A stretch of 64,000 bases of DNA, from positions 1 to 64,000 of IMG/VR virus record IMGVR_UViG_3300025887_000010; one strand, 5' to 3'. The position numbers were made by a program, and so were the translations under genes. Under the pieces are notes generated by a model. The model searched no databases. It saw only the letters and a program-made list of their open reading frames with translations, and was not told the origin of the DNA. Below, one piece after another: positions 1,882 through 53,786 of this stretch. The DNA comes from a virus. Every line of letters starts with the position of its first letter. Positions within the stretch are counted from its first letter, which is position 1.

Positions 1882-2169
1882 TCAATCTTCAGGAGTAACC
1901 AGTGACTCACTGAGTAACGTATGCCAGGTTGATGAATAATATATTGTCGAAGCAGGTGGTGTGACCCAGAGAGCTTCGTTGTCACCATCTATTATATCAC
2001 ACTTCGAATCAGATGTACACAATTCATTGCAACATTTGTGCAATTTAATGCACTTACCTCTGTGACCCTTGCATCTAGTGCATACAACATAATTGATTGA
2101 TCTTGAGACCCCACGACGAGCAAGAACTCCAGTCCCTCCACATCGTCTACAGTATTCAGTTACGAACAC
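1882..2169 (-). CDS. Small Cys-rich protein, doubtful 3' half
   Basis: The GTG start at 2169 overlaps the end of an out-of-frame ORF stopping at 2160. The N-terminal half has zinc-finger-like Cys pairs (CRRCGGTG, CTRCKGH) resembling one DnaJ-type zinc unit. The C-terminal half is encoded by an early promoter (1991-2020) and the repeated 70-bp element (1900-1969), so it is probably read-through from a truncated gene. Function unknown. Confidence 0.4.
   Translation of the reverse strand: MFVTEYCRRCGGTGVLARRGVSRSINYVVCTRCKGHRGKCIKLHKCCNELCTSDSKCDIIDGDNEALWVTPPASTIYYSSTWHTLLSESLVTPED
1900..1969 (-). repeat. Four-copy 70-bp element, copy 1
   Basis: On the minus strand: CTGGGT, then TCGACAATATATTATTCATC plus AA (1950-1929), then exactly 13 nt, then ACTCAGTGAGTCACTGG. 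CTGGGT can pair with ACTCAG, and the core has a short TYGA/TCAA stem. An early promoter (1991-2020) lies just upstream and would transcribe it. The other copies are at 11579, 23818 and 44888. Confidence 0.7.
1991..2020 (-). promoter_or_regulatory. Early promoter inside an ORF
   Basis: GTGTAC, 18-nt spacer, TATAAT, read leftward. It lies inside the 1882-2169 frame and about 20 bp upstream of element copy 1, which suggests a short non-coding transcript. Confidence 0.75.
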
Positions 2170-11578: not shown

Positions 11579-11646
11579 CTGGGTTACATAATAAGTTTGA
11601 CTATATAATATACATCAATCTCTACGAAGGTACTCAGAGAGTCACA
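11579..11646 (+). repeat. Four-copy 70-bp element, copy 2
   Basis: CTGGGT, core TTGACTATATAATATACATC plus AA (11597-11618), 13 nt, ACTCAGAGAGTCACAGG. A leftward early promoter at 11704-11733 would transcribe it as the complement. An overlapping 8-bp hairpin (ATGTAACC 11562-11569 with GGTTACAT 11582-11589) adds structure. The 213-bp gap 11554-11766 holds no gene. Confidence 0.7.
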
Positions 11647-23817: not shown

Positions 23818-23885
23818 TGGTAACACTCGACGGCATTGACAATATATTATTCATCAATGCTGGTTCGAGTATTCACCGAGTCCCA
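23818..23885 (+). repeat. Four-copy 70-bp element, copy 3
   Basis: CTGGTAACA, core TTGACAATATATTATTCATC plus AA (23836-23857), 13 nt, ATTCACCGAGTCCC. In this copy the flanks pair strongly: ACTCGACGGCATTGA (23825-23839) with TCAATGCTGGTTCGAGT. Its right end overlaps the last codons of the DHFR gene. Confidence 0.65.
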
Positions 23886-44887: not shown

Positions 44888-44962
44888 CTGAGTCTTACGA
44901 TCGTATTGACAATATAATATACATCAAACGACAAAGAGGAACTCAGCGATTCACTGAGTTCC
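44888..44962 (+). repeat. Four-copy 70-bp element, copy 4, with 3' hairpin
   Basis: CTGAGT, core TTGACAATATAATATACATC plus AA (44906-44927), 13 nt, ACTCAGCGATTCACTGAG. The ACTCAG part also forms a 9-bp hairpin (GGAACTCAG 44938-44946 with CTGAGTTCC 44954-44962). A leftward early promoter at 45022-45051 would transcribe it. The 319-bp gap 44798-45116 holds this element and two promoters but no gene. Confidence 0.75.
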
Positions 44963-47727: not shown

Positions 47728-48116
47728 TGGACGCTCTCCTCTTCTTCTGACAATTTGCGATTGAAGACATCAGCCTGTAGGTCTTGGCCGTCGATCTCTC
47801 TGTTGATGAACGCAGCCATGAAGCTTGCGTAGTTGACCATATCCATCAGGGTGTCTTCGACGGATTCGAAAACTGGAGCGTTATTGTTCGATTCCCATGT
47901 TTCGATCAGTGACTGAAGCCGAAGCTTCTTCGCATGGATGATCTCTTCGATCGTCTTGATGCCTGACGGATAATAGTCAGCTTGCTTGACGCGAGAGTTT
48001 GGATTTTGGTAATCCTGACCCTTGAGTCGTTGAAGTTCGATGCATTTCTGCAGGAACATAACCGAGTAGCGCTCTTTCGATACGCCGATGGCTTCGAGTC
48101 GGTTGGTTGTAGACAT
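47724..48116 (-). CDS. DUF1599-like (nucleotide-modification-associated) protein
   Basis: Pattern ELQRLKGQDYQNPN, IHAKKLRLQSLIE, VEDTLMDMVNYASFMAAFI fits DUF1599, which in phages often accompanies modified-base enzymes. It is translationally coupled (ATGA) to the dCMP hydroxymethylase. 130 aa. The annotation rests on motif pattern, and function is inferred from context. Confidence 0.55.
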   Translation of the reverse strand: MSTTNRLEAIGVSKERYSVMFLQKCIELQRLKGQDYQNPNSRVKQADYYPSGIKTIEEIIHAKKLRLQSLIETWESNNNAPVFESVEDTLMDMVNYASFMAAFINREIDGQDLQADVFNRKLSEEEESVQ

Positions 48117-49313
48117 TCACATTTCTCCTTTGTCAAACCGCATTTTCAAGAATTCTGGGTGGCGAAGACGACCGGCTGGAGTGTACTCCATGAATTCCGC
48201 TTCGCATTCTTCACCGATCAACTGATCACGAATTTCCCAGAGATATTCGCGTTGCCTATCGGAAAAGCCTCCGCCAATTTTCGTTGTGGTGCCTTTCTGG
48301 GTCTTAACTATCAACGCACCAAGCTTGCCTTTGAGGCGACCTCGTCCTTCATGAAATCCGGTGACTTCGAAAGAGTCTTCAACAAGAGGCTTGACCTTCA
48401 TCCAGTCGAGTGTGCGCTTGAATGAGTACTTGCCCTTCTTCTTCTTGAGGATTGCACCTTCATGACCGGCTTTGCGATACCGATTGTAGGCAGCTTCAGC
48501 TTCTTCGAGAGAGTTCACAATCTCATGTTCGGCGAGTGGAGTCACTAAGATCATTGATTTCAGAGCTGCATATCGTTCTTCGTATTCGCGAGTGCTTTTG
48601 CGAGACTTGAATTCTTCCATTGTGATTGCATCGAAGAGTTTCAGGCTAGAAAGGACTGCGTCTGAAGTGCTGCGATGGATAACACCAACTGAAAGGTTGA
48701 AGTCACCACCATCAGTGATTGCTTCACCATCGAAGACCATGTTGGGATACGCAGAAAGTTCATTGAGAATTTCCGGATCGATATTGTAGAGAGGCTTGCC
48801 GTTTCTCGAAAGAGTTTCAGTGGCTCCATGTGCATCTACAAGAACGACACAGCGAACTCCATCGAATTTCGGCTGAGCGTAACAAGGGAATTCAGTTTTG
48901 GATTTCGTGTAGGACCCAGCCAATTGAAGGCTAAAGGTCTTGTACGCGTCTTTGTAGACGGTACGGAACGATTTACCACCAATTCCGAGTTGGTATGACT
49001 GAAATCGCCCAAGAATCGAGTTGGTCACATTCAGCTGCAAGTCGGAGAAATCTTCGCAGTTATTGCGAAGCCATTTGAAGTCGGACTCTCCCAAGGCCGT
49101 GAGGATTTGTTCATCGGTGATGGCAGATTCGACATTTGGAAGGGTTGGGCGAAGTTTTGAGACTCCGAAGTTGTGGAATGGATCAAATGACCAGGTGATG
49201 ACTTGCACGGTGTGTGCATCAATCTCACGAAGAGCTTCAATTTTTGCATTGGTTCCTTTTGTGGAACCAAGCATTGATAGATCGCGATGGATAAGTTCGA
49301 ATGGATTCATCAT
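48117..49313 (-). CDS. 30: ATP-dependent DNA ligase, gp30-like
   Basis: Seals nicks in Okazaki fragments. Adenylation motif YAQPKFDGVRC (Lys149), PNMVFDGEAITDGGDF, GHEGAILKKKKGKY and LDWMKVKPL are present. 398 aa, below T4 (487) but typical of phage ligases. AAAGGAC precedes the start, promoter 49336-49365 behind. First gene of a seven-gene operon down to 45117. Confidence 0.92.
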   Translation of the reverse strand: MMNPFELIHRDLSMLGSTKGTNAKIEALREIDAHTVQVITWSFDPFHNFGVSKLRPTLPNVESAITDEQILTALGESDFKWLRNNCEDFSDLQLNVTNSILGRFQSYQLGIGGKSFRTVYKDAYKTFSLQLAGSYTKSKTEFPCYAQPKFDGVRCVVLVDAHGATETLSRNGKPLYNIDPEILNELSAYPNMVFDGEAITDGGDFNLSVGVIHRSTSDAVLSSLKLFDAITMEEFKSRKSTREYEERYAALKSMILVTPLAEHEIVNSLEEAEAAYNRYRKAGHEGAILKKKKGKYSFKRTLDWMKVKPLVEDSFEVTGFHEGRGRLKGKLGALIVKTQKGTTTKIGGGFSDRQREYLWEIRDQLIGEECEAEFMEYTPAGRLRHPEFLKMRFDKGEM

Positions 49314-49335
49314 ATTGTCCTTTGTTTATAGTTCC

Positions 49336-49365
49336 ACTATATCATACATAGCACGCATTGTAAAC
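49336..49365 (-). promoter_or_regulatory. Early promoter of the ligase-hydroxymethylase-gp33 operon
   Basis: GTTTAC, 18-nt spacer, TATAGT with TGA before it. Confidence 0.75.
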
Positions 49366-49381
49366 AAGAAAATTGTCAACG

Positions 49382-49607
49382 CTATTCGTGAAGGATGACA
49401 CCTGACTTGAGTGTGACGCGAATTCGATACTTGACGTACGGACCAACTGGTGGATTTTTTGGAAATCACAGGACCAGTGTAGCGCATAATACGACCTTGA
49501 ATTCGAATTCCGTCATTTCTCGAATATGCTGAAACTGTGGTTGTTCCTAACATATTCAGTCTCTTTCTAGTTCTCGCTTTACCGAGAAGGTAATCAGCTT
49601 TGGCCAT
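49382..49607 (-). pseudogene. Frame-disrupted small gene (probable indel at A6/T6)
   Basis: From ATG 49607 (MAKADYLLGKARTRKRL), AGGAAC upstream, the frame reads GIRIQGRIMRYTGPVI; a one-base shift near 49455-49465 (AAAAAA) continues PKNPPVGPYVKYRIRVTLKSG and stops at 49382-49384. Combined about 75 aa, basic. Without the shift the frame runs into the ligase promoter. Confidence 0.5.
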
Positions 49608-49636
49608 AATTTCTGTTCCTAAAGTGTAGTCCAAGT

Positions 49637-50338
49637 CTACTCAGAAGATTGCTTCTTGAGGATAAGTTTCAAAATTTGATCGACAGTCTGGACACTTTCG
49701 ACCTCGTGATCGTCGATTTCAAGTTCGAAATCTTCCTCGATGAGTATATGGATTTCGACACAATCCAAACTGTCAGCTCCCAAATCAGTGTGGATGTCTG
49801 AATTGGGGTGAACGAGATCGATATCAACCATGAGATGGCTTGCGAGAATACTTTTGATACGGGTAAGAAGACTGTCGTTTTCGACTTCCTTCACTGGTTT
49901 ATCATCAGTGATTGTCATCGGGATGATCGACGATTCACGATCTCCGAAAATATATAGGTTTGGGTTCTTCCAGCGAGCTTCGAATTCCTCGTTCGGAATG
50001 TAGAAGATGCGATCAATCCCAGCTTTGAATAGCTTGGAGATGCATCCTCCACATGGGAAACCAGTTACGTAGGCATCACATCCTTCGACACGAGTACCGA
50101 ATTGAGCAGCATTCAGGAGTGCATTCTCTTCAGCGTGGATTGAAAAGACAAGACGATCGTCGCGTTGTAGATTTTCAACTGCGTCATCATCGATACCTGG
50201 ACAATTTCCATTCCATCCAGTAGAGATGATGTGGTGTGACTTGGAGGCAATAACACATCCAACATGAGCACCGTTATGTTTCGAATTTTGCGATGCAAGA
50301 GATGCAACACACATTGGGTAGGTTGTGATGCTCTTCAT
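49637..50338 (-). CDS. dCMP deaminase fused to an acyl carrier protein
   Basis: Residues 1-135: cytidine/deoxycytidylate deaminase zinc site, His68-Ala-Glu70 (SIHAEENALLNAA) and Cys96, Cys99 (FPCGGC). Residues 155-228: an acyl carrier protein with NSDIHTDLGADSLDCVEI, Ser190 in the DSL motif being the expected phosphopantetheine site, and helix ESVQTVDQILKLI. Both parts are in one frame of 233 aa. The deaminase would convert dCMP to dUMP for thyA; the ACP role is unknown. I know of no family with this architecture. Confidence 0.88.
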   Translation of the reverse strand: MKSITTYPMCVASLASQNSKHNGAHVGCVIASKSHHIISTGWNGNCPGIDDDAVENLQRDDRLVFSIHAEENALLNAAQFGTRVEGCDAYVTGFPCGGCISKLFKAGIDRIFYIPNEEFEARWKNPNLYIFGDRESSIIPMTITDDKPVKEVENDSLLTRIKSILASHLMVDIDLVHPNSDIHTDLGADSLDCVEIHILIEEDFELEIDDHEVESVQTVDQILKLILKKQSSE

Positions 50339-50538
50339 CAAACTTCCTCCATCCTTTCGGCCGCATTGATCGAATTCGTCACATCCTCGATGTGTTTATT
50401 CGCATCGTTGATCGCATTCTGAGCTTCCAAACCTGCAATTCCACAGCGAACGTCAGAGTGAATGAACGCCTGTGTGAGTGCATTGCGCAATTTCACAATG
50501 AGATCAAACTGTTCTTTCGATTGGACTTTTTTATTCAT
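50338..50538 (-). CDS. Hypothetical 66-aa helical protein
   Basis: Start at 50538 (MNKKVQSKEQFDLIVKLRN), AAAGGAAA upstream. Helical with GIAGLEAQNAINDANKH. Stop overlaps the deaminase-ACP start (TGATG). No family recognised. Confidence 0.65.
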   Translation of the reverse strand: MNKKVQSKEQFDLIVKLRNALTQAFIHSDVRCGIAGLEAQNAINDANKHIEDVTNSINAAERMEEV

Positions 50539-50573
50539 GTCTACGTTTCCTTTGTTTAAGGTTTCATAATTCA

Positions 50574-50603
50574 ATCATAACACAAAGCAAATGCGATGTA
50601 CAC
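50574..50603 (-). promoter_or_regulatory. Early promoter of the deaminase-ACP operon
   Basis: GTGTAC, 18-nt spacer, TATGAT. Confidence 0.75.
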
Positions 50604-50607
50604 ACAA

Positions 50608-50634
50608 AAATGGCGAGCACGAGGCTCGCCATTT
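50608..50634. terminator. Terminator A of a duplicated terminator-promoter module
   Basis: AAATGGCGAGC and GCTCGCCATTT, 11-bp stem, followed by TTTTT on the minus strand. It is part of an exact 36-bp repeat (50597-50632) also present at 50752-50787. Confidence 0.85.
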
Positions 50635-50722
50635 CTTTTATAAATGTTGCTTTAGACGATTACAGCATGACAATCTCCCCTTATTCTAAAAGCGTTTGAA
50701 AGACGATTTCAAAAGTTTCGAT
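50608..50722 (-). ncRNA. Candidate short RNA with a two-codon minigene
   Basis: A leftward early promoter (50729-50758) and a terminator (50608-50634) bound about 115 nt with no real ORF. Inside is a strong ribosome site AAGGGGAG (50682-50675), then ATG CTG TAA at 50668-50660, a two-codon start-stop frame. It could be a regulatory RNA or a minigene. Confidence 0.5.
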
Positions 50723-50728
50723 AGTTAA

Positions 50729-50758
50729 GATATATCACACTCTGTACGTCTTGTACAC
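50729..50758 (-). promoter_or_regulatory. Early promoter of the short RNA unit
   Basis: GTGTAC, 18-nt spacer, TATATC with TGA before it. Confidence 0.75.
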
Positions 50759-50764
50759 ACAAAA

Positions 50765-50787
50765 ATGGCGAGCACGAGGCTCGCCAT
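50765..50787. terminator. Terminator B of the duplicated module, ends gene 23
   Basis: ATGGCGAGC and GCTCGCCAT, 9-bp stem, with TTTTT on the minus strand, about 30 bp after the gene 23 stop. Confidence 0.85.
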
Positions 50788-50813
50788 CATTTTGATCAGT
50801 GTTTCTGTTCGAC

Positions 50814-52133
50814 TTAGAACAGGATACCAGTCACGCGGAACAAGCGGTAGAACTTGTTGGTCCGTGCTACGACTGCGCCGTTCGTGTCTGCCAGAGGGTT
50901 GACAACGAAACCGGCCCGTGTCTTGAAGAACATGACTGGCTGACCCGATGTTGGGGACACAGTTTCAACGCTCCAGACTGGGACGTATGGGCAGTAGAAT
51001 GCACCAGCTGCATATTCGGCATCGCCTTTCCAACCAACCATGCAGAAACCTGCGTTGGGGGAAGAGACTTGCGCACGGTCGTCACGGTAGATGCGCACTT
51101 TGCCCATCAGCATGCCGACTGCAGTCGTGGTGTCAGTGATGACCTCAGATGCGCCGGAGAACTGGTTGTTCGCAGGGCTGAGTTCACTGATGAAGCCGGA
51201 GTTGGCGAGCAGGTTGTAGGTCTTCGTGTCAACCACGGCAAAGTTACCATGACCGGTACGAGTGTCAAACATGATCTGCGAACATTCATGCAGAATGCGC
51301 ATTGCCAAGATACGACCTTTCTCACCAATCCACTGACCGTCGGTGTCAGCGTTCAAATCGTATACGCCAGGAGTGGTTGTGTCGGAGCAACCCAGAACTG
51401 CCGAGATGTACAACTTGCGAAGCGTTTCGTAGTTGATTTCGGAAGTCAGCTGTTCGGACATCATCGAGCCGAACATGGATTTGCCGTCGACACCGTGTTG
51501 TGCTGCAAGGTCCTGAATCATTTCCATCGAGAAGTTCGACATCAATGCGCGGGTCTTGGCTTGCACAGGGACGGAGTCCACAGTCATGGCGACCTGAGCG
51601 GTCACGTCGTCTTCGCCTTCGCCACTGGACATGAACCCACCAGTCGTAAAGCCGGAACCGATACCAGTACCAGCGTCGGCAGTTGGATCAGAGGCGCGGT
51701 CAGTGGCAACAACAGCAGCTTCGCGAGCGCCGGCAGAATCGAGACCAGTGAAGTCAGCTTGTGTGTTGTTGAGCGCAATTTCAGCGCCAGATTGGTTATT
51801 GAACCGTGGACGCCATGCGAAAGCAAGACCGGTTGGACCAGTAAGTGGTTGAGTACCAACAAGCTGGTTACCCAGAATCTGTGGACCCATCCGGCGAACC
51901 AGAGAGATTACCACCTGGTCATAGCCAGAAACGCCGCCAGCAGTGTTTGTCGGTGCAGCTTCTTGGAAGACGCTCTTCTGAGAGGCCAGGAAGTTGCGTG
52001 TGTTTTCCAGCATACGGGCGATGCCCATCTGCTTGGTTTTGTCCTTGACAGGCTCCATCGTGTCGTCCTGTGCTTCAAGCACTTTCTTCCACTTTTGGGC
52101 AAGGAAATGGTCGTTTTCACCATAAAATTCCAT
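50814..52133 (-). CDS. 23: Major capsid protein gp23
   Basis: Start at 52133 (MEFYGENDHFLAQKWKKVLE) has AGGAGA and a late box (52183-52190) 50 nt upstream. gp23 hallmarks: VFQEAAPTNTAGGVSGYDQVVISLVRRMGPQ, GLAFAWRPRF, MSNFSMEMIQDLAAQHG, LTSEINYETLRKLYISAV, PYVPVWSVETVSPTSGQPVMFFKTRAG. 439 aa, shorter than T4 (521). Lxx-Glu sites in the first 50 residues fit gp21 processing. GC and Ala usage is higher than in neighbours, as usual for capsid genes. Confidence 0.95.
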   Translation of the reverse strand: MEFYGENDHFLAQKWKKVLEAQDDTMEPVKDKTKQMGIARMLENTRNFLASQKSVFQEAAPTNTAGGVSGYDQVVISLVRRMGPQILGNQLVGTQPLTGPTGLAFAWRPRFNNQSGAEIALNNTQADFTGLDSAGAREAAVVATDRASDPTADAGTGIGSGFTTGGFMSSGEGEDDVTAQVAMTVDSVPVQAKTRALMSNFSMEMIQDLAAQHGVDGKSMFGSMMSEQLTSEINYETLRKLYISAVLGCSDTTTPGVYDLNADTDGQWIGEKGRILAMRILHECSQIMFDTRTGHGNFAVVDTKTYNLLANSGFISELSPANNQFSGASEVITDTTTAVGMLMGKVRIYRDDRAQVSSPNAGFCMVGWKGDAEYAAGAFYCPYVPVWSVETVSPTSGQPVMFFKTRAGFVVNPLADTNGAVVARTNKFYRLFRVTGILF

Positions 52134-52182
52134 CGTGTTTTCTCCTAAGGGTGTTGGATCATTTGTTGCATGATCATTCGTA

Positions 52183-52190
52183 TATTTTAC
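52183..52190 (-). promoter_or_regulatory. Late promoter of gene 23
   Basis: GTAAAATA on the minus strand, 50 nt before the start. Confidence 0.75.
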
Positions 52191-52213
52191 TCGTGCTGGC
52201 ATTCGATTTTAGA

Positions 52214-52597
52214 TCAGGACTTCAACATCCTTGTGACGATCTTGTTGCCCTTTTCACGAAAGGCTTTCACGAACTCGGGTGACGAAATCCCAGAGCAGGA
52301 CTCTGCAATATGTACTTCAGTTCGATATCCTTGCGTGATCGTGTGACGGACAGAACCCATTGCGATTCCATTTTTGGTCGTAAGAATGTTCTCGATCACT
52401 ATGGATTCGCCATCATTATCCACCGAGGTGCTCACTGCAAACCCGGAAGACTCGAGGAAGGTCTTCGAAAATGATTCGATGACCTTCGAAATTGATTCGA
52501 CTTCAGAGTCAGTGAGCGTCAAGGATGTGACAGACTCCGTGAAGAGATTGTCACACCCTCTTTCGCTCAAATCCTCGAGGATTTGGCTGATCCGCAT
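52214..52597 (-). CDS. Hypothetical 127-aa protein between 22 and 23
   Basis: Start at 52597 (MRISQILEDLSERG) directly after the gene 22 stop, GGAAA upstream. N-terminus has an ILE site; Ser/Thr-rich (TESVTSLTLTDSEV) with SISKVIESFSKTFLESSGF. Placed inside the capsid block and preceded by scaffold, so a core or capsid-associated internal protein is likely. No family recognised. Confidence 0.65.
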   Translation of the reverse strand: MRISQILEDLSERGCDNLFTESVTSLTLTDSEVESISKVIESFSKTFLESSGFAVSTSVDNDGESIVIENILTTKNGIAMGSVRHTITQGYRTEVHIAESCSGISSPEFVKAFREKGNKIVTRMLKS

Positions 52598-52598
52598 A

Positions 52599-53786
52599 TC
52601 AGCTTTCCATTGCTTCATCGATTGCACTGAAGAGGTCACCCTTGACTTCGCTCTTGAGACTGAAATTAGTGTCAGCGTTCTCGACAATGCGCTTCATGTA
52701 GTTGTCGTTTTCGGAGTCTTTCTCGGTGAAGAACTTGGTCTTCAACATGGTGGCCTTGCCTTTGAAGTCTTCAAACGAGCTGAAGTCGACCTCGTTGACA
52801 GATTCGACGAAGCGTTCCTTTACAGAGTCCGTCATGTCGTCAGAAGCATTCTCAACGAAGCGTTCAATCTTCAGCAGAAGAGCTTCTTTGCGAACGGTAT
52901 CCAACTTGGTAGAAAGCTCTTCGACGAAATCGGTCTTGTCCTTCAGATCAGACTGCAGTTCCTGAATTTTGGAGCTGTTTTCGGCCTTCATCTCGAAGTC
53001 GGTGTCTGAGAACAGAGTCTGAGTTTCCTCAAAGAGAGTCTCCAGTTTGGCAAGACGTGCCTTATCGACGATGACATCACCATGAGATTCGAAGAAGTCG
53101 TTTGTTGCACGTTCGACGTATGCAGAAACACGACGGTCAATTTCTTTCTCCTGGGCTTTCGCATTGGCTTCGTACTTTCGCTCCATTTTCGATAGAGCCT
53201 TTTCAGAAACGGCAACAGCGACTCGTGCGATCTCGGTCTTCAGAACAGCGACAAAGGCGGCAGAGCGTTCTTCATCAAGGTCGAGAGATTCGATGACCTT
53301 CTTGACGACAGCGTTGTCGACCACGGAGATTGGAGCAGACTCACCAAGAATTGGAGCTTCATCGTCTTCATCGCCTAACTCGTCATCTTCATCGCCCATT
53401 TCGTCGTCCTCATCACCCATTTCATCGATGAGTGGATCATCAAGACCGTCGATGGACTCTTTCTTCTTCTTCTCTTCGTAGTCCTTGTCGTCCTTGTCGT
53501 CCTTGTCGTCGTCCTTGTCGTCGTCCTTGTCGTCGTCCTTGTCGTCGTCCTTGTCGTCGTCCTTGTCGTCGTCCTTGTCGGACTCTTTCTTCTTCGCTTC
53601 CATCTTGGCGAAGATCGAACGAATCTTGTACGATTCGCCTTTTGTCAGCGTGGGAGCGTCATCAACGGATTCGTTAAGCAGTGCGAATCCCTTGTCGGCG
53701 TTCTCAGCAAAAGCGGTCGTGATCTCATTCAGTTTGCTTGGGTTTTTGCTTGCAAGGTCCTGCAAAGCTTTCAGAATTCTATCCAT
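52599..53786 (-). CDS. 22: Prohead core scaffold gp22-like with acidic repeat
   Basis: Core scaffold that shapes the prohead and is degraded by gp21. Position between 21 and 23, helical, very acidic and Lys-rich; FEDFKGKATMLKTKFF and SIRSLDLDEERSAAFVAVL-type helices fit. Residues about 75-110 are a low-complexity KDDD run encoded by 12-bp tandem repeats (53485-53580). 395 aa against 269 in T4. Identity is by position and composition; its start has no visible late box, so it follows 21. Confidence 0.78.
   Translation of the reverse strand: MDRILKALQDLASKNPSKLNEITTAFAENADKGFALLNESVDDAPTLTKGESYKIRSIFAKMEAKKKESDKDDDKDDDKDDDKDDDKDDDKDDDKDDKDDKDYEEKKKKESIDGLDDPLIDEMGDEDDEMGDEDDELGDEDDEAPILGESAPISVVDNAVVKKVIESLDLDEERSAAFVAVLKTEIARVAVAVSEKALSKMERKYEANAKAQEKEIDRRVSAYVERATNDFFESHGDVIVDKARLAKLETLFEETQTLFSDTDFEMKAENSSKIQELQSDLKDKTDFVEELSTKLDTVRKEALLLKIERFVENASDDMTDSVKERFVESVNEVDFSSFEDFKGKATMLKTKFFTEKDSENDNYMKRIVENADTNFSLKSEVKGDLFSAIDEAMES
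53485..53580. repeat. 12-bp tandem repeat inside gene 22 (KDDD)
   Basis: TCGTCGTCCTTG repeats head to tail at least six times, encoding KDDD on the minus strand. It is in frame and does not break gene 22. Confidence 0.9.

Follow-up and report, generated by a model that had tools for sequence, protein, structure and literature searches.

A possible gene-less interval between PeSL-like cassettes downstream of the major capsid protein gene of a T4-like phage

The major capsid protein gene of a T4-like phage is followed by a short interval that may represent a slot without a gene between two PeSL-like (promoter early stem-loop) cassettes. The interval is located in the window, the 64,000-nucleotide stretch of DNA analysed here, which is part of a 126,862-base virus record. 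On the minus strand, the gp23-like gene is followed first by T1 and P1, a terminator and a promoter. A gene-free stretch of about 117 nt separates them from a second such pair, T2 and P2, which precedes a 66-aa open reading frame (ORF) and a deaminase gene (Table 1). The promoter, the terminators, and the repeat that joins them are beyond chance. Since a promoter and a stem-loop terminator are doubled as one exact block, we give about an even chance to the reading of the unit, based on its sequence elements, as a gene-less interval between PeSL-like cassettes. Most likely, it is either an emptied small-gene slot or a drifted duplicate that includes the 3′ end of gp23.

Table 1 Features of the locus downstream of gp23 and copies of a recurrent intergenic element. 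Positions refer to the window unless marked as record positions.
Feature	Position	Strand	Description
gp23-like major capsid protein gene	50814..52202	-	upstream neighbour of the unit; Pfam Gp23 E 1.3e-92, PHROG 138 major head protein
T1, predicted intrinsic terminator of gp23	50764..50788	-	about 25 nt past the gp23 stop codon; tail TTTTTGTGTG
Exact 36-bp block, first copy	50752..50787	-	hairpin, T tract, GTGTG, TGTACA
P1, predicted promoter, TGTACA/TGTGATATAAT class	50729..50757	-	matrix score 34.3; TGTACA (-35) 50757-50752, spacer 17 nt, TATATC (-10) 50734-50729
Predicted short RNA, about 117 nt	50606..50722	-	both ends inferred from the positions of P1 and T2
Shine-Dalgarno sequence AAGGGGAG	50675..50682	-	duplex -8.6 kcal/mol
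Two-codon frame ATG CTG TAA	50660..50668	-	read from the sequence
T2, predicted intrinsic terminator	50608..50634	-	-19.6 kcal/mol, z -5.6; same tail as T1
Exact 36-bp block, second copy	50597..50632	-	repeat comparison
P2, predicted promoter of the next gene, class of P1	50574..50602	-	matrix score 34.8; -35 TGTACA, -10 TATGAT
66-aa ORF downstream of P2	50338..50538	-	without family match
TTGATGTATATTATATTGTCAA element copies	11597-11618 (-), 23836-23857 (-), 44906-44927 (-), 1929-1950 (+), record 98074-98095 (+)		

The exact 36-bp duplication reported in the original prediction is real. Each copy is composed of a hairpin, a T tract, and the adjoining -35 hexamer TGTACA, and the copies are positioned 155 bp apart. 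With up to three mismatches allowed, the hairpin core occurs twice in the 126,862-base record and has no third copy, and none is expected in shuffles of the window. A search of the record for a second copy of the whole unit returned only short promoter or hairpin matches. The T2 hairpin with its T tract stands directly before TGTACA, and its stability fits the terminator that had been proposed there. A consensus scan of positions 48000-53000 listed six terminators versus 4.8 expected, which is no excess. A hairpin with a T-rich tail is found 3′ of gp23 in 43 of the 48 loci scored, several of which are near-duplicates; the 48 are a subset of 60 that leaves out the window's own species and 11 loci in which the gene end was cut or unmatched. 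Such a hairpin is located just 5′ of 4 of the 25 minus-strand promoters of the P1 class. Read-through frames starting from an ATG within the repeated hairpin, noted by eye, were rejected: no Shine-Dalgarno (SD) sequence lies shortly before them, and the repeat is accounted for by the perfect hairpin.

P1, which had been placed at 50729-50758, is a clear member of its class, with a matrix score far above the threshold of about 4. The pattern TGTACA-N15..19-TATNNT occurs 11 times in the window versus 0.14 in shuffles, and 21 times in the full 126,862-base record, including a second appearance, near its far end, of two sites already counted. The position matrix, derived from 20 sites and refined iteratively on its own matches, identifies 26 sites in the window, 25 on the minus strand and a weak one on the plus strand. 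A simpler consensus scan of positions 48000-53000 does not list P1, and its four sigma70-like sites are no excess over the 5.6 expected. Many of the class promoters are followed by a leader resembling AACTATAAACAAAGGA. From the promoter class, we infer that P1 and P2 are early. The motif TATAAAT at position 50639 on the plus strand, within the unit, was discarded as a late promoter; it occurs once per strand in the window and therefore lies outside any visible class.

An ORF of at least 35 aa with an SD match is present no more than 80 nt from the inferred start at 18 of the 25 minus-strand class promoters; therefore, a gene would be expected after P1. The seven promoters lacking such an ORF are 50757 (P1), 45050, 41288, 23761, 12294, 11732, and 2019, of which 41288 has, by eye, an ATG frame near its start and 12294 a short frame. 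P1, 45050, 11732, and 2019 are each followed next by a further class promoter. Minus-strand promoters 45050, 11732, and 2019, together with one at record position 68193, have no evident gene before the next class promoter about 180-250 nt downstream, and an 11-pair hairpin is located downstream of 45050. These gene-less stretches are possibly leaders or further RNAs.

The intergenic regions also contain a recurrent element with the core TTGATGTATATTATATTGTCAA, often followed by GACTCAGCGAGCTCCAGG. The core has four pattern matches in the 126,862-base record versus none for a reversed control, and a fifth copy matches a relaxed pattern. Four of the five elements sit 47-75 bp 5′ of a TGTACA-class promoter on the same strand, and they are candidates for an operator, an enhancer, or an RNA. 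Two promoter sites recur at both ends of the record (1743-2019 and 125145-125421, 123,402 bases apart), a pattern that a circular record or repeated ends would give.

The ATG CTG TAA frame lies where it had been predicted, in an interval that is indeed free of genes and close to the 115 nt first estimated. About 54 nt, among them AAGGGGAG, precede the ATG in the inferred RNA, and the TAA is separated from the T2 hairpin by about 25 nt. The ribosome site was originally called very strong, which is fair, although its duplex energy, calculated with what we take to be the 16S tail, is exceeded at 5 of 17 promoter-proximal gene starts and is the stronger at 12. An equally strong SD precedes 37 minus-strand ATGs, 30 of which open frames of at least 40 codons and two of which close within two codons. 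Since in addition the chance of an SD-ATG in a random 117-mer is 0.01-0.03, the SD-ATG here probably marks a genuine gene start or what used to be one. Frames consisting of ATG, one codon, and a stop behind an SD this strong number one on the minus strand and none on the plus strand of the window, versus a shuffle expectation of 1.0 per strand (60 shuffles) or 1.45 in a second set of 20. Window-wide, they are not commoner than in shuffled sequence, and the two-codon length is therefore not evidence of selection. An 11-codon frame opening with TTG at the SD, noted by eye, was set aside because the spacing is too short.

We propose that T1 terminates the gp23 message and that P1 starts a short RNA, which the identical terminator T2 would stop before P2 fires the next gene; these activities are read from the sequence elements. 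The RNA would retain the leader, the ribosome site, and the ATG, and the frame closes one codon later, so that a bound ribosome would make at most fMet-Leu. The coding part of the slot may have been lost. Alternatively, a terminator-promoter segment could have been copied with a bit of the gp23 3′ end and then drifted. The RNA would then be without a dedicated product. Recombination between the exact 36-bp copies could delete or exchange the 155-bp unit. An emptied slot is favoured by the composition of the repeat, whose parts are the functional pieces of a promoter-terminator composite, and by the full class membership of P1. However, P1, the SD, and T2 all appear intact, which a relic need not be, and the block has just two copies in the 126,862-base record. 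Gene loss stays a proposal, since no relative was found that carries a gene in the T1-T2 interval.

The slot after gp23 appears changeable, as it holds varied genes among eight relatives. The next annotated gene is a small one on the same strand in four of the eight and lies on the opposite strand in three; in a fifth relative, an unannotated frame after gp23 was recognized by eye. The sequence 3′ of gp23 differs from that of the window in all eight. Within the window, the last 45 nt ahead of T2 can be aligned in register with the gp23 end and the 3′ UTR that precedes T1, with the ATG CTG of the two-codon frame opposite ATC CTG of gp23. With score, length, and trimming varied in 18 combinations, the anchored P of this alignment ranges from 0.0003 to 0.008 versus shuffles and from 0 (of 6000) to 0.02 versus genomic samples; without anchoring, the similarity to the gp23 tail is weak (P about 0.015). 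The coding tail of gp23 alone has no significant similarity (score 29, with 95% of the null at 31). The alignment is suggestive of an origin of the unit by copying of the gp23 3′ end. In such a case, 36 exact bases next to flanks of about 62% identity would need homogenisation or strong constraint. Also counting against this origin, the P1 and P2 leaders are not each other's nearest; with partner ranks of 9 and 16 of 24, a tandem duplication that included the P1 leader is unsupported.

The best matches of the gp23-like protein among phage records have 46-53% identity and come from phages of Rhizobium, Sinorhizobium, Agrobacterium, and Ochrobactrum; most of those examined are classified in Pootjesviridae. 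In bacterial genome contigs, gp23 had a single fragmentary match of 39 residues at 41%, which was set aside. The only close relative found in IMG/VR, with gp23 and the repeat as queries, is IMGVR_UViG_3300006803_000027. It is 99.95-99.96% identical to the record over 8.7 and 12.4 kb, with four and five differences, respectively, none of them within the unit, and is therefore uninformative on selection. A portal protein search identified a second contig from the metagenome of this relative, with a 100% match. Blastn searches of phage records for homologues of the unit gave no match in one case and one chance match of 24 nt in another, and neither phage records nor IMG/VR provided an independent homologue that could show constraint.

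The 66-aa ORF downstream of P2 has no relative in phage records and no match to a Pfam or PHROG family. The next gene (49637-50341, minus strand) encodes a dCMP deaminase domain (Pfam E 1e-18, residues 10-114) fused to an acyl-carrier-protein-like domain (E 1.9e-8, residues 161-227) with a phosphopantetheine site, and is also matched by PHROGs. None of the 910 phage records with a tblastn match covers 80% of this ORF, and a literature search for a fusion of dCMP deaminase and acyl carrier protein found nothing. Short tandem repeats at 53457-53610 lie within the prohead core gene (T4_CASP family) and code for a stretch rich in Asp and Lys.

It is also conceivable, although unlikely, that the unit encodes an early small regulatory RNA of about 117 nt that acts by base pairing or protein binding, with ATG CTG TAA being incidental. 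Bacterial small RNAs usually have their own promoter and a strong terminator with a T tract, as predicted here, and three further class promoters (45050, 11732, and 2019) likewise reach the next promoter without an ORF of their own. However, Rfam has no match in the window at the gathering score. The whole RNA folds at z -2.3, but the 83 nt that remain without T2 fold at z +0.69, so that T2 accounts for the fold signal. Antisense pairing with the 89 predicted gene starts of the window gave no signal, as 44 of 100 shuffles reached its best value, and no homologue was found in which conservation would show. The regulatory RNA that had been offered as an alternative is thus left without structural, family, or target support.

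A working minigene is quite unlikely. It would produce fMet-Leu, and drop-off of the CUG peptidyl-tRNA or occupation of ribosomes would slow host translation during takeover. Minigenes of the lambda bar type become toxic when peptidyl-tRNA hydrolase runs short, as peptidyl-tRNA builds up. The frame is the sole one of its kind on both strands of the window, its SD is among the better ones, and it lies in a promoter-driven RNA without another frame; the chance of such a minigene in a random 117-mer lies between 0.0005 (at the unit's composition) and 0.002 (at that of the window). Against this stand the window count, which does not exceed the shuffle expectation, the second codon, a CTG where lambda bar has AUA (PMC8012679), and the missing comparative sign of constraint, including from the near-identical contig. 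Of the original minigene reading, the isolated predicted unit with its SD and frame holds; the depletion of peptidyl-tRNA was deduced from the frame itself, and the same three observations tell against it.

Very unlikely, too, is a double insulator, in which T1 and T2 in tandem along gp23 transcription would shield the P2 genes by their common strong hairpin and the P1 RNA would be a by-product, since transcription would restart at P1 between the two and terminators after gp23 are common, none having been shown to need a second identical one. We hold it equally improbable that the unit produces a dedicated early minigene RNA, with AUG-CUG-UAA between identical cassettes draining leucine tRNA or idling ribosomes during takeover. 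If the frame is translated, it offers a natural test of whether phages beyond lambda use two-codon frames; if not, the gene-less interval would give a clean picture of how small-gene slots empty and refill in T4-like genomes.

PeSL cassettes of T4-like phages were reportedly described by Arbiol and colleagues in 2010 and Comeau and colleagues in 2014. Such a cassette carries a strong sigma70-like early promoter beside a terminating stem-loop and is repeated in the genome, and its copies recombine, moving genes between related phages. The phage studied here resembles this arrangement in its sigma70-like promoter beside a predicted stem-loop terminator, its repeated block, the small-gene slot, and its T4-like nature, and differs in having just two copies of the block in 126,862 bases, with no gene between them. 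A terminator and a -35 element thus occur twice as one exact 36-bp block around a gene-less interval, in a T4-like lineage with a capsid protein nearest to those of Pootjesviridae phages. Among the titles and abstracts of literature on minigenes, PeSLs, and phage small RNAs, none describes the unit, which is no proof of its absence in print; work on PeSLs of T4-like phages is cited in PMC4503421.

Phage small RNAs, as outlined in the review PMC12197685, resemble the predicted RNA in being short and in having a promoter and a terminator to themselves; here, however, there is no structure beyond the terminator, no target, and no family match. The lambda bar minigene, given as AUG AUA UAA in PMC8012679 and compared here also on the basis of PMC7948969, similarly has a start, one sense codon, and a stop behind a ribosome site; in the unit, the second codon is CUG and the predicted RNA is free-standing between two terminators. 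The leader mini-ORF mg2 of axe-txe, as presented in PMC8708949, likewise consists of ATG, one codon, and TAA with a ribosome site. The cistron on which mg2 acts in cis lies 15 nt further on, whereas in the phage T2 and P2 intervene and the next ATG is 121 nt from the stop.
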